A DNA stretch of 64,000 nucleotides from Roseofilum casamattae BLCC-M143 (GTDB lineage Bacteria; Cyanobacteriota; Cyanobacteriia; Cyanobacteriales; Desertifilaceae), in assembly GCF_030068455.1 (NCBI RefSeq), contig NZ_JAQOSQ010000002.1, positions 62,001 through 126,000 on the forward strand. Direction: 5' to 3'. Below the pieces are notes generated by a model, which had not been told where the DNA came from, ran no database searches, and was given only the letters and a program-made list of their open reading frames with translations. Below are positions 39,985 through 43,066 of the stretch, piece by piece. The position numbers and the translations under genes are program-made. Every line of letters starts with the position of its first letter. The stretch's first letter is position 1.

Positions 39985-40590
39985 TTATTTTTTGGGCGAT
40001 CGCAACGGCTCTTGTAATGCCTTGATAACCAGAGAAATCGTCCGAGAGTCGGTTAACATCCACGGATGGAATAACACCGGAACTGTCACATTACGACCGA
40101 CAGGCAGGCGCGAACTGCGAGCGGGGAAAATCATCAAGTCGTTCTTCGTCCAAATCGAGGTAAAGTTAATCGATTCGAGTTGATGTAAATCCCGGTTGAG
40201 GTCTTGCAAAAACGAACTATCCGGTCGCATTTGCCGACATCCTGGATTTTGCCGCACGTAAGCGATCCAACTGCCATTATGAGGGGAAGAAAGGGTAATG
40301 AAGCGATCGCATCGGCTCAGTCCGCCCAGCCGTTGCAAATAATACCGACTGATGATGCCGCCCATGCTGAACGCAACCAGGTCAAACCGGGTCTCGGGGA
40401 GAAATACGCCATCGACATAATCGCGTATTTGTTCGGCTAGGCGATCGAGTCCTTTTTTACCATTATTCGGAATTAAATCTAAGGGATGAATGGACCATCC
40501 TTGGGTTTGCAGTGCCTTGCCCATTTTAGAGAACACGGCACCGGTGTCATCAATTCCATGAATCAAGAGGATAGGGTTGCGATCGGTCAT
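39985..40590 (-). CDS. alpha/beta-hydrolase, lipase-like
   Basis: 201 residues. LLIHGIDDTGAVF supplies the oxyanion-hole HG, and DLVAFSMGGIISRYYLQRLGG holds the nucleophile elbow (S in FSMGG; usual form GxSxG with A for the first glycine). The acid and histidine are probably the D in TKNDLMI and the H in LFHPWM. Resembles triacylglycerol-lipase/PGAP1-type esterases acting on ester bonds; substrate unknown. No signal peptide. Confidence 0.85.
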   Translation of the reverse strand: MTDRNPILLIHGIDDTGAVFSKMGKALQTQGWSIHPLDLIPNNGKKGLDRLAEQIRDYVDGVFLPETRFDLVAFSMGGIISRYYLQRLGGLSRCDRFITLSSPHNGSWIAYVRQNPGCRQMRPDSSFLQDLNRDLHQLESINFTSIWTKNDLMIFPARSSRLPVGRNVTVPVLFHPWMLTDSRTISLVIKALQEPLRSPKK

Positions 40591-40645: not shown

Positions 40646-40780
40646 CAGGTAGCTGAGCGCAGTCGAAGCTACCGACTACTCAACCTTAATCAGCCTCCAG
40701 GTAGCTGAGCGCAGTCGAAGCTACCGACTACTTAACCTTCACAGGTCTTAGGGGGGAGTTCGACTGCGCTCAACCCCCCC
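40646..40780. repeat. three hairpin repeats downstream of the GIY-YIG gene
   Basis: Two identical units at 40646-40680 and 40698-40732 (52 bases apart) form GGTAGCT-loop-AGCTACC. The third at 40751-40780 forms GGGGGG/CCCCCC with a GTT/AAC extension. All share the loop core CGACTGCGCTC, in the reverse orientation in the first two. The third overlaps the end of the GIY-YIG gene and encodes its last residues. Confidence 0.9.
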
Positions 40781-41074
40781 TCGCCGATAGTGCGATTCAT
40801 TCTGACATTCTGCCAAAATATGAAGTCTATTCCAGTCAGTATTCATCAACGCGATTTTCTTCTTGCGACTCCAACCCTGCACCTGTTTTTCTCGGTGAAA
40901 CGCATCCGCCACATGGTCGTAATATTCTGCATAAACCAACGTTACAGGTAATCGTTGTTTGGTATGATTGGCCCCGAAACCATTTTGGTGTTCCCATAAC
41001 CGTCGGGATAAATCCTTTGTACTTCCCGTATAGAAGGAACCATCCGAACATTTAAGGATATACATATGGGGCAT
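40748..41074 (-). CDS. GIY-YIG nuclease domain protein
   Basis: 108 residues, a single-domain URI-type GIY-YIG endonuclease: MYILKCSDGSFYTGSTKDLSRRLWEHQNG (YIL and YTG stand for GIY and YIG; catalytic Tyr, Arg), HTKQRLPVTLVYAEYYD, then AFHREKQVQGWSRKKKIALM with the metal-binding Glu. The protein could nick or cut DNA with a metal ion. The last residues (VERSRTPP) come from a hairpin repeat, and the longest frame starts inside the repeat array on the other side. ATG 41074 with AGAGAT upstream is preferred; 41095 and 41065 are possible. Repeats of one type on both sides suggest the nuclease belongs with them. Confidence 0.85.
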   Translation of the reverse strand: MPHMYILKCSDGSFYTGSTKDLSRRLWEHQNGFGANHTKQRLPVTLVYAEYYDHVADAFHREKQVQGWSRKKKIALMNTDWNRLHILAECQNESHYRRGGVERSRTPP

Positions 41075-41091
41075 TTTAGATAATCTCTTAC

Positions 41092-41350
41092 TCATCAAGA
41101 CCGGGCTTCGACTGCGCTCAGCCCTCATTGACTAAGTTCTCATCATCAAGATCGGGCTTCGACTGCGCTCAGCCCTCATTGACTAAGTTCTCATCATCAA
41201 GATCGGGCTTCGACTGCGCTCAGCCCTCATTGACTAAGTTCTCATCATCAAGATCGGGCTTCGACTGCGCTCAGCCCTCATTGACTAAGTTCTCATCATC
41301 AAGATCGGGCTTCGACTGCGCTTAGCCCTCATTGGCTCAGTTCTCATCAG
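41092..41350. repeat. five tandem 51-bp hairpin units upstream of the GIY-YIG gene
   Basis: Units begin at 41103, 41154, 41205, 41256 and 41307 (period 51). Each holds the stem GGGCT/AGCCC around the loop TCGACTGCGCTC, followed by the spacer TCATTGACTAAGTTCTCATC. The last copy is decayed in loop and spacer. Because 51 is divisible by three, a meaningless open frame crosses the array. Confidence 0.95.
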
Positions 41351-41560
41351 CCTTGCTCAGCGTTTATCGGTATACAATAATTATAACGATCGCATGTCTT
41401 GCAATAGATACTCACGACTCAAAATCAATTAATTTCTCAATCATCAGCAGCGATCGTCATCTTTACCATGAGCTTAACAATGCGTAATAATAGAGAGCGA
41501 AGATAAACTCATCTTGGCAATCCAAGATTGAATGCTGTCCCCACCACCGAGGATCGAGAC

Positions 41561-43066
41561 ATGAACGAACGCGAAGCTAGCGGGATCGACGATCCCTCAG
41601 AAGTCTTCACCGATGCGGAAGAACTATTCCCGGACGAAATCCATACCCCCGCTCCTGCTGCTCCAGGAAGAAGCGAGCGTCGGGGACTGTTGTTTGTCGC
41701 TCTAGGTATTGGTGTCGTTCTAGGAATAGGGGTATCGAGCTTATTCCAATCCTCGCAAACCGCTCCCGTGCAACCGGCGACAGCAACTCAATCGGAAGAT
41801 CCGGTACAAACGGTTACCTTATCCACAGTCAAGCGTACGCAAATTCCGCGAACCTTTACGGCAACCGGAACCGTGGAAGCCTACGACCTCCTGCCCATTC
41901 TGCCGCAAATTTCCGACCTCCAAATCCGTCAAGTGTTGGTGGATGAAGGGGATTGGGTGGAGAAAGGGCAATTATTGGTTGTATTAGATGATTCCGTCTT
42001 GCAAACCCAGATTGGCGAAGCCAAAGCGGACGTACAAGCCAACCAAGCCATGGTGCAAGAGCGGCAAGCGGCAGTGGGACAAGCCAAATCAGCTCTAGAA
42101 GCGGCCTTAGCCAACCAAACGGAAGCGGAAGCCGGAAAAGAGCAGGCGATCGCCTCTCTGGCGCAAGCGGAAGCCGAATTAGAGCAAGCCGAGCGAGAGT
42201 TAAAGCGATCGCAAACCCTCAGTGACGAAGGGGCCATCAGCACTCAAGATGTGGATAATCGGCGTACTGCCGCCCAAACCGCTGCCGAAGCCGTCCGAGT
42301 CGCGCAAGCCAATGTGAACAGCGCCAACGCCAGAATTAGCAGTGCCAAAGCCAACGTCAGCAGCGCTCGCGCCGGAATTAGCAGCGCGCAAGCCAACGCG
42401 AATACGGCAGTCGCTCAGCTCAACAGCCAGCAAGCAAGATTGGCGCAACTACAAACCCGACTGGGACAAACCCAGGTGAAAGCTCCTGCCAGCGGCAGAA
42501 TTTCCGAACGCAATGCCCGAGTTGGGGATTTAGCCAGTCGGGAGAATGCAATGTTCCGCGCGATTAATCAAGGAGCCTTGGAGTTGCAAGCCACCATTCC
42601 GGAAATGCAATTAGGGCAAGTACGTATTGGCTCGGAAGCAATGGTTACTTCAGATGCAGATTCTCGGATTAAGTTGAAGGGAACAATCCGCGAGATTGCG
42701 CCTCTAGTCGATGCCGAGACTCGACAAGCCACGGTAAAAATTGACCTACCAACATCCTCCTTGTTGCGACCTGGGATGTTCCTAACGGCAACCCTGACCT
42801 CGCAAACGAGCCAAGGACTGGCGGTTCCAGCAGAGGCAGTTCTTCCTCAATCTGATGGCAGAACCATTGTGTATCAGGTAGACGAGAAGAACCGGGCGAT
42901 CGCCAAAACCGTAGAAGTCGGAACCACTCTGCCCGGAAAACCACCGCAAATTGAAGTGAAACAAGGACTGAATTTTGGCGATCGCATTATTGTCCTCGGT
43001 GCTGGATTTATCAAAGAAGGGGATATCGTCCGCATTGCCAGCGAACAGTCTACCGTCATTCAGTAA
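41561..43066 (+). CDS. RND efflux periplasmic adaptor subunit
   Basis: About 501 residues, membrane-fusion protein linking the inner-membrane RND pump to an outer-membrane channel. Acidic N-terminus, one membrane helix (LLFVALGIGVVLGIGV), then a lipoyl half motif (IRQVLVDEGDWVEKGQLLVVLDD), a very long alanine-rich coiled-coil hairpin (residues about 150-310), the second lipoyl half (VKAPASGRISERNARVGDLA) and beta-barrel and membrane-proximal domains (LRPGMFLTATL). ATG 41561 has GAGGA at a suitable distance; the longest frame starts with a TTG. 38 bases before the pump gene, same operon. Confidence 0.9.
   Translation: MNEREASGIDDPSEVFTDAEELFPDEIHTPAPAAPGRSERRGLLFVALGIGVVLGIGVSSLFQSSQTAPVQPATATQSEDPVQTVTLSTVKRTQIPRTFTATGTVEAYDLLPILPQISDLQIRQVLVDEGDWVEKGQLLVVLDDSVLQTQIGEAKADVQANQAMVQERQAAVGQAKSALEAALANQTEAEAGKEQAIASLAQAEAELEQAERELKRSQTLSDEGAISTQDVDNRRTAAQTAAEAVRVAQANVNSANARISSAKANVSSARAGISSAQANANTAVAQLNSQQARLAQLQTRLGQTQVKAPASGRISERNARVGDLASRENAMFRAINQGALELQATIPEMQLGQVRIGSEAMVTSDADSRIKLKGTIREIAPLVDAETRQATVKIDLPTSSLLRPGMFLTATLTSQTSQGLAVPAEAVLPQSDGRTIVYQVDEKNRAIAKTVEVGTTLPGKPPQIEVKQGLNFGDRIIVLGAGFIKEGDIVRIASEQSTVIQ

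Follow-up and report, generated by a model that had tools for sequence, protein, structure and literature searches.

Hairpin repeats with a constant loop and a variable stem are linked to GIY-YIG nuclease genes, and this link is both solid and broad. In the window, the 64-kb stretch of DNA analysed here, eight hairpins of this type surround a gene for a small GIY-YIG protein. From the sequences it is concluded that GIY-YIG proteins are the putative cognate nucleases of two families of REP-like hairpins, which they would recognise and cleave. It seems fairly likely that the locus is a REP-like element, made up of a hairpin-specific nuclease gene and cognate hairpins that would be read through the loop, nicked and copied by the host, and that a related branch of GIY-YIG proteins does likewise with CGTC REPs.

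The GIY-YIG locus and its hairpins

The features of the locus and its neighbours are as follows.

39985-40590, minus strand: alpha/beta hydrolase gene, neighbour of the locus
40648-40673, minus strand: hairpin 1, 3' of the gene; stem GGTAGC/GCTACC, core TTCGACTGCGCTCA
40700-40725, minus strand: hairpin 2, 3' of the gene; stem GGTAGC/GCTACC, 52 bp from hairpin 1
40748-41128, minus strand: longest GIY-YIG open reading frame, 126 aa (Pfam PF01541); hairpin sequence encodes both ends
40748-41074, minus strand: GIY-YIG gene from the conserved Met (MPHMYIL..., 108 aa), from the starts of relatives
40751-40780, plus strand: hairpin 3; stem GGGGGGaGTT/AACCCCCCC; homology to genome G034 starts within its 3' arm
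41092-41346, plus strand: five 51-bp units in tandem, all with a GGGC/GCCC hairpin
41103-41124, plus strand: hairpin 4, at the start of the 5' array; homology to G034 stops just beyond it, at 41127
41154-41175, plus strand: hairpin 5, GGGC/GCCC stem
41205-41226, plus strand: hairpin 6, GGGC/GCCC stem
41256-41277, plus strand: hairpin 7, GGGC/GCCC stem
41307-41328, plus strand: hairpin 8, GGGC/GCCC stem, one loop substitution (CTTA)
41528-43066, plus strand: HlyD-type gene, neighbour of the locus

The first-pass annotation had described three hairpins after the gene and five before it, and all eight were found: the minus strand carries the gene, and three hairpins lie 3' of it and five 5'. The three stem types are also those described earlier. 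The loop had been called identical throughout. This is true of seven hairpins, which have the exact loop CGACTGCGCTC and share the core given above, but hairpin 8 has the loop CGACTGCGCTT, a single-base difference. The seven exact copies are the only ones in the window and every one of them is at this locus, whereas 100 shuffled windows contained a mean of 0.05 copies and a maximum of 1. A spacing of 51-52 bp had been given for both sides of the gene; the core-to-core distance is indeed 51 bp in the 5' array, but it is 52 and 53 bp between the 3' hairpins. The protein is 108 residues long, as proposed, when read from the start codon kept among relatives, the Met at 41074, but the longest frame gives 126.

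Hairpin sequence extends into the reading frame. Hairpin 3 encodes the final ten residues (GGVERSRTPP), in agreement with the first-pass annotation. The longest frame had been said to begin inside a hairpin, but it starts a few bases beyond hairpin 4 and then translates this hairpin as MRAERSRSP. No terminal inverted repeats are found at the locus, where the inverted pairs consist of loop cores only, and the hairpins of the window (type 1) carry no unpaired GTAG or CGTC end tag. The source genome (G000) has a size of 5.1 Mb.

Linkage of type-1 hairpins to GIY-YIG genes

Homologous loci were chosen by protein alone, as the best 80 of at least 547 confirmed relatives. By their record titles they come from Cyanobacteria, Bacteroidota, Pseudomonadota, the actinomycete Agreia, a spirochaete, Cloacimonadota and others. 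A strict type-1 motif, TTCGAC-N1-6-CTCA, was counted in them with the reversed motif as control. Within 200 bp of the gene it reaches 3.1 copies per kb on the upstream side and 5.0 on the downstream side, compared with 0.03-0.14 copies per kb far off (1-8 kb); the reversed motif was not found within 200 bp of the gene at any of the 80 loci. The strict motif is within 200 bp of 57/80 GIY-YIG genes versus 25/611 control open reading frames of the same loci (p 1e-44), and for small control frames the count is 8/241. It lies upstream of 29 of the 80 genes, downstream of 49 and on both sides of 21. Counts of 9-mers made with no motif given beforehand also recover the type-1 sequence. The link between hairpin and enzyme that had been proposed from one locus thus extends across several phyla, and its absence, named in advance as grounds for giving the idea up, is not what was found: the linkage is far above chance.

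A larger set of 97 loci was formed from the 80 protein-chosen loci, the window and 16 loci from a search of the order. A wider motif, TTCG[AG]C, is present within 500 bp in 86 of the 97 loci and absent at 11; the strict motif is absent within 200 bp at 23 of the 80. The strict motif was not seen at L046-L058, the 13 most distant loci taken from that order search, which are outside the 97-locus set. Hairpins lie within 300 bp on both sides of the gene in 51/97 loci. The nearest upstream hairpin is in minus orientation in 39/60 loci and the nearest downstream hairpin in plus orientation in 53/77, and the inverted arrangement is thus preferred without being obligatory. Two closely related loci, L035 and L059 (the latter from Microcystis), have unequal tandem runs of a hairpin unit of about 22 bp downstream of the gene.

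Constant loop, covarying stem and protein tree

The notion of a constant loop on a covarying stem was examined in 294 distinct hairpin contexts and was borne out. Stem positions 1, 2 and 3 pair in 93, 91 and 89% of contexts, compared with 57, 36 and 39% when the right arms are shuffled. Pairing is 74% at position 4 (shuffled 49%) and 58% at position 5 (28%), and at position 6 it is at the shuffled level. Contexts that are paired at all five positions contain 29 distinct 5-bp stems. Outside the 5-bp stem, a C at +6 is conserved (262/294, among the pair types listed) and a G at +7 less so.

There are two main classes of loop, one of 14 nt, TTCGRCTNCGCTCA, and one of 13 nt, mostly TTCGRCARGCTCA. 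When these were placed on a tree of the proteins, which is built from few alignment columns and has numerous open forks, loop class changed 7 times; in 500 shuffles of the labels the mean was 13.2 changes and the minimum 10. The labels were majority calls for 84 loci (70 and 14) with one tie (L135). The proposal that the constant part is the element read by the protein gains support, in so far as sequences can give it, from the match between loop class and protein tree and from the second repeat that goes with a second branch. A comparison of L038 with L039 as a case of loop inversion was dropped; the upstream flanks are not homologous.

A second branch with CGTC-tagged REPs

A second branch of GIY-YIG proteins (type 2), found in Proteobacteria, is flanked by another palindrome, the CGTC-tagged REP of the dRS3 type. 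Locus L049 served as the query for 143 genomes from the class to which the Methylococcaceae MAG G205, which carries L096, belongs. Protein matches were found in 82/143 genomes and the best 30 loci were analysed. The type-1 motif is near 2 of these 30 genes, both of them poor matches. Counts of 9-mers at type-2 loci bring up CGTCATTCC and CGGAATCCA, and the palindrome GTCAT[CT]C...G[AG]ATC[CT]A is within 300 bp of the gene at 15 of the 23 complete loci (a count that excludes L250-L251 and five clipped loci). Its density falls from 4.0 per kb in the first 200 bp to 1.3 at 200-400 bp, 0.27 at 400-800 bp and 0 at 800-1500 bp. The pattern was derived from the 9-mers of the same loci and its controls are the far bins, the reversed pattern and the type-1 loci; the reversed pattern is not found at type-2 loci and the palindrome at none of 80 type-1 loci.

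Ten named type-2 loci were also chosen from 34 plasmid-collection records with such a protein. Two records of this collection, NZ_CP119142.1 and NZ_AP026896.1, are chromosome-sized (2.17 and 4.94 Mb) and are probably mislabelled chromosomes. Palindromes flanked by CGTC or CCTC are present at 9/10 of the chosen loci, and at 7/10 they are within about 370 bp of the gene. Palindromes that fit the definition of a CGTC REP (a CGTC, TGTC or CCTC tag, an 8-9-bp stem starting from AT, a loop of 4-5 nt and a CCA-like tail) are found at 7/10. Those of Novosphingobium and Sphingobium are 8-bp palindromes flanked by CGTC, without the AT start and the CCA tail, and at one locus, on a Planktothrix plasmid, no CGTC palindrome was found. 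All tagged palindromes of the 4-kb stretch are near the gene in Azospirillum, Aeromonas and Shinella. The array extends to 1.9 kb in Photobacterium, and in Neisseria, Rhizobium and S. meliloti part of the palindromes are 0.5-0.7 kb from the gene. Nearness says little in Neisseria because dRS3 is abundant there, with 755 listed in N. meningitidis in the stem-loop survey (PMC2267715). The Azospirillum lipoferum gene (L253, plasmid AZO_p3) is located, with CGTC REPs, between sufB and sufC of the suf operon, and the gene on the Planktothrix agardhii plasmid (L261) lies between an MmeI-type restriction gene and DISARM drmA.

Copy number across genomes

The number of hairpins was surveyed in 195 genomes of the order and 149 genomes of Bacteroidia, with statistics that ignore kinship. 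In the order, the median is 23 motifs in the 17 genomes that have a close gene, 13 of which contain at least 5. The median is 0 in 164 genomes without any match, of which 36 have at least 5 motifs and 8 at least 20, and it is also 0 in 14 genomes with distant matches only. In Bacteroidia the motif is present in 15/17 genomes with a strong match (at least 100 bits; median 6), in 21/27 with a middling match (median 7) and in 41/105 with a weak match or none (median 0, at least 20 motifs in 7). The expectation that hairpin number tracks the gene therefore holds for the medians, 23 versus 0 and 6 versus 0, but the two are not tied, as hairpin-rich genomes without a close gene match exist (G049, G057, G092, G387 and G405). 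The gene may have been lost from these genomes or the hairpins may have spread in another way. Hairpins can persist without a close copy of the gene, since at least 20 motifs are carried by 8/164 genomes of the order that lack any match and by 7/105 of Bacteroidia with at most a weak match. A PF01541 search of 12 genomes that are rich in hairpins but have no close gene found 25 further loci (UvrC and others), with the type-1 motif at none of them.

In the genome of the window, 19 of the 23 dispersed exact copies are beside or within one element with terminal inverted repeats (TIRs). It is about 150 bp long with TATAG...CTATA ends and contains two head-to-head hairpins of the type-1 loop family. 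Examples in this genome are as follows.

Around 2001 of L012, minus strand: TIR element
L010-L025 and L028: further examples

It resembles a TA-targeting MITE into which a pair of hairpins was captured. The hairpin count in this genome mostly reflects the MITE because so many of the dispersed copies ride in it, and copy number in this genome was rejected as proof of spread driven by the nuclease. At L009, L014 and L026 of the same genome, hairpins have apparently been inserted within the loops of other hairpins (TTCGAC^TTCGCTCA). The point of insertion may mark a cut site.

Mobility of hairpins and gene

Empty sites were sought in Agreia; in the close relatives of the window the flanking genes are on different contigs. 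Two Agreia genomes share 92% identity in the 8 kb upstream of the GIY-YIG gene and 88% in the 8 kb downstream. Agreia sp. Leaf283 has 473 motif copies and Leaf210 has 62, with reversed controls of 5 and 8, and in 400 kb of syntenic sequence there are 64 versus 6 motifs (TTCG[AG]C-N2-3-GCTCA). The Leaf283 motifs of this region form 36 clusters, of which 21 could be placed in Leaf210, and 15 of the 21 sites are free of the motif there. The cleanest insertions are clusters 16 (an inverted pair), 20 and 34 (a 52-bp segment). At clusters 18, 19, 24 and 28 of the 15 the two genomes align with no insertion and the motif arose by substitution; the remaining motif-free clusters are in poorly aligned stretches. 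From the copy numbers we infer that Leaf283 gained hairpins, not that Leaf210 lost them.

The gene is also found as a unit at unlike sites. Genome G034, of the same genus as the window, has an 85%-identical unit between dissimilar neighbours; relative to the window it starts in the 3' arm of hairpin 3 and extends as far as the end of hairpin 4. The 5' hairpin of the unit is whole, and at the 3' break there is the C-rich arm only and no complete hairpin. The G034 neighbourhood was not found in G057, G076, G093 or G127. At some loci (Winogradskyella) the neighbourhood is conserved, so the gene is often inherited in place.

These results bear on three other explanations. The hairpins could be regulatory, serving in autocontrol of nuclease expression or as terminators or processing sites and scattered by passive duplication. 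Their positions immediately upstream and downstream of the gene would suit such a role, as would the tandem duplications in the window and in loci L035 and L059. However, hundreds of dispersed copies and insertion polymorphism exceed what autoregulation would require and the hairpins are found in both orientations, which makes a regulatory origin quite improbable.

Could the gene instead be a free-standing homing endonuclease, for which hairpins made and spread by something else are mere landing sites? GIY-YIG homing enzymes are known (PMC1564403), about half of the 97 loci have hairpins on both sides of the gene, and hairpins are plentiful in some genomes without a close gene copy. Mere landing sites would not be expected to follow the protein tree by loop class, to differ between two protein branches as two dissimilar repeats do, or to be more numerous in gene-bearing genomes, and the Agreia genome with 473 copies has no match to a Y1 transposase. 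Homing is thus unlikely, though the least unlikely of the alternatives weighed.

The third explanation is that the hairpins are ordinary REPs moved by a RAYT or another transposase, with the GIY-YIG link incidental. REP and RAYT are an established pair (PMC3733652; PMC8266576), and the MITE that carries most dispersed exact copies in the genome of the window would also agree with a transposase. Matches to Y1_Tnp (PF01797) were indeed found in 6 of 10 hairpin-bearing genomes searched, but there is no match in the genome of the window, in the two Agreia genomes (G195, G196) or in G203. A type-1 hairpin is within about 300 bp of just 3 of 30 Y1 loci examined, and these have equal scores and offsets and are apparently copies of one element, while 57/80 GIY-YIG genes have the hairpin close by. 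RAYT was rejected as the mobiliser in the genome of the window and in Agreia, and for the hairpins as a whole this origin is very improbable.

The protein

The only Pfam match of the window protein is GIY-YIG (PF01541, E 2.9e-14). It has the conserved Tyr, Tyr-x-Gly, Arg and Glu of the GIY-YIG superfamily, and 46 sequences share Y, Y-x-G, R, H and E without exception; we take these to be the catalytic residues of the domain. An AF2 model of 40759-41071 has a mean pLDDT of 89.3, with block values of at least 95 across the first 80 residues, so the core is predicted confidently, and the C-terminal end is of low confidence. A structure search with the protein gave UPF0213 BH0048 (1zg2) as the only match with E < 0.001, followed by EF2693 (1ywl; E 0.002), At-HIGLE (E 0.08) and Slx1 (E 0.19). 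The sequence profile also places the two UPF0213 proteins, BH0048 and EF2693, nearest, and the closest named homologues, among the matches listed, are cyanobacterial. At-HIGLE and Slx1 are described as nucleases that act on branched DNA. The predicted likeness of fold is in keeping with action on hairpins or cruciforms but is no proof of it.

The weak structural likeness to Slx1 and At-HIGLE could also be taken to mean that the nuclease restrains hairpins, removing them or resolving cruciforms, and hairpin-rich genomes do tend to carry the gene. Restraint would leave the bracketing of the gene by hairpins unexplained, and also the G034 unit whose homology ends at hairpins, and it is extremely improbable.

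The protein is maintained by purifying selection, as dN/dS is low: 0.02-0.24 in ten pairs, several of them with saturated dS. In four pairs that include the window gene dN is 0.05-0.08 and dS 0.6-1.4; a fifth pair has no defined dS. HsdM of type I restriction systems was found within 700 bp of the GIY-YIG gene in 20/97 loci; single-linkage clustering at 3 kb gave 26 and 22 loci, and domain identity was confirmed for one HsdM and one HsdS. The order hsdM, GIY-YIG, hsdS on one strand is seen in 9 of the 97, which come from several phyla and have the gene and its hairpins between hsdM and hsdS (L030, L031, L035, L037, L059, L067, L112, L121 and L137). Locus L042 (G131:C11:691-1285) has a tandem pair of GIY-YIG matches beside hairpins with the 13-nt loop, and at L104, in a Spirochaetaceae MAG, the gene is interrupted by an in-frame TGA.

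Proposed mechanism and meaning

In the preferred reading of a nuclease with cognate hairpins, the small GIY-YIG protein (UPF0213-like, with a Slx1-like fold) would recognise the folded hairpin, as a single strand or a cruciform. Recognition would be mainly through the constant loop, TTCGRC-N-GCTCA, and the stem would be required only to pair. The protein would then nick the folded hairpin, and host replication or repair would copy hairpins to new sites, singly, paired or with the gene, and would also expand them in tandem. The related branch would treat CGTC-tagged REPs likewise. Recognition, nicking and the route of copying are the parts of this scheme that we infer. GIY-YIG enzymes cut DNA by hydrolysis, without a covalent intermediate, and for this reason the copying step must be that of the host. 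The spread of the hairpins is probably driven by GIY-YIG proteins through host repair.

The loop-constant REP family is known from Cyanobacteria, Bacteroidota, Pseudomonadota, Actinomycetota and others. Since two enzyme branches each accompany their own repeat family, the data suggest that a GIY-YIG enzyme is the missing enzyme behind some widespread small bacterial repeats. In its broadest form, the proposal is that GIY-YIG nucleases make up a second and independent class of enzymes that mobilise REPs, with hairpin codes specific to each subfamily, that nicking and host repair spread both hairpins and gene, and that these nucleases are the enzymes missing from CGTC REPs (dRS3) and from the unnamed loop-constant REPs, a form of mobile DNA without a transposase. 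The chances of this are about even. If true, CGTC REPs, left without an enzyme since 2013, would gain one and an open question would become testable. Small nucleases known mainly from structural genomics (UPF0213) would gain a role, and mobile DNA would be able to spread by a simple nuclease in place of a transposase.

Comparison with known systems

As far as open-access PMC without preprints was searched, the link between GIY-YIG genes and hairpins is undescribed. Among the matches listed there, no paper joins GIY-YIG with bacterial REP-type repeats, and six loop sequences matched no paper there. The statement of the first-pass annotation that it knew of no such system is upheld within the same bounds. 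By term count in the text covered, a phylogenomic paper on GIY-YIG proteins makes no mention of palindromes or hairpins (PMC1564403), RepRanger 2025 (PMC12306157) and a MITE review (PMC10969869) make none of GIY, and the stem-loop survey makes none of a nuclease (PMC2267715).

The second repeat family has a close counterpart. In 2013 Di Nocera et al. described two REP super-families, of which CGTC REPs are one; theirs is the sole open-access PMC match for the CGTC repeat terms (PMC3733652). According to that account CGTC REPs have a CGTC tag, an 8-9-bp stem that almost always starts with AT and a tail that is mostly CCA, CGTC-1 of Neisseria is dRS3, and these REPs "apparently lack a dedicated transposase" (PMC3733652). 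The palindromes at type-2 genes share the CGTC or CCTC tag, mostly the 8-9-bp stem with its AT start, and the CCA-like tail. What differs is that a GIY-YIG gene is linked at type-2 loci; the hairpins of the window are not CGTC REPs.

For the protein, the nearest solved sequences and folds are the UPF0213 and other small stand-alone GIY-YIG proteins (BH0048, EF2693), with At-HIGLE and Slx1 more distant. No report of hairpin repeats beside UPF0213 proteins was found in the open-access literature, and distant cyanobacterial homologues that read as UPF0213-like (L052-L058) have no strict type-1 motif. The catalytic domain is also held in common with GIY-YIG homing endonucleases of the I-TevI type. 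These have extra DNA-binding modules and long asymmetric target sites, whereas here there are hairpins, there is no intron and about 100 aa leave no space for such modules. By their variable stems the hairpins have a further analogy in integron attC sites, which fold, keep core boxes and are substrates of a tyrosine recombinase.

The closest parallel in arrangement is REP/RAYT, in which dispersed short palindromes, often as inverted pairs, flank the gene of a small DNA-processing enzyme. As in a REPtron, the palindrome here flanks the enzyme gene and is dispersed in the genome. Recognition by RAYT relies on the loop and on single-stranded features (PMC8266576). RAYT (TnpA-REP) is an HUH Y1 tyrosine transposase, whereas the enzyme here is a GIY-YIG nuclease with no other Pfam match, and type-1 hairpins have a constant 13-14-nt loop core, a variable stem and no GTAG tag. 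The system is not a REPtron because the Y1 enzyme is absent. The likeness to REP/RAYT that was proposed at the outset, with a GIY-YIG enzyme in the place of the transposase, therefore stands as a likeness in the way the two systems work and not as membership.
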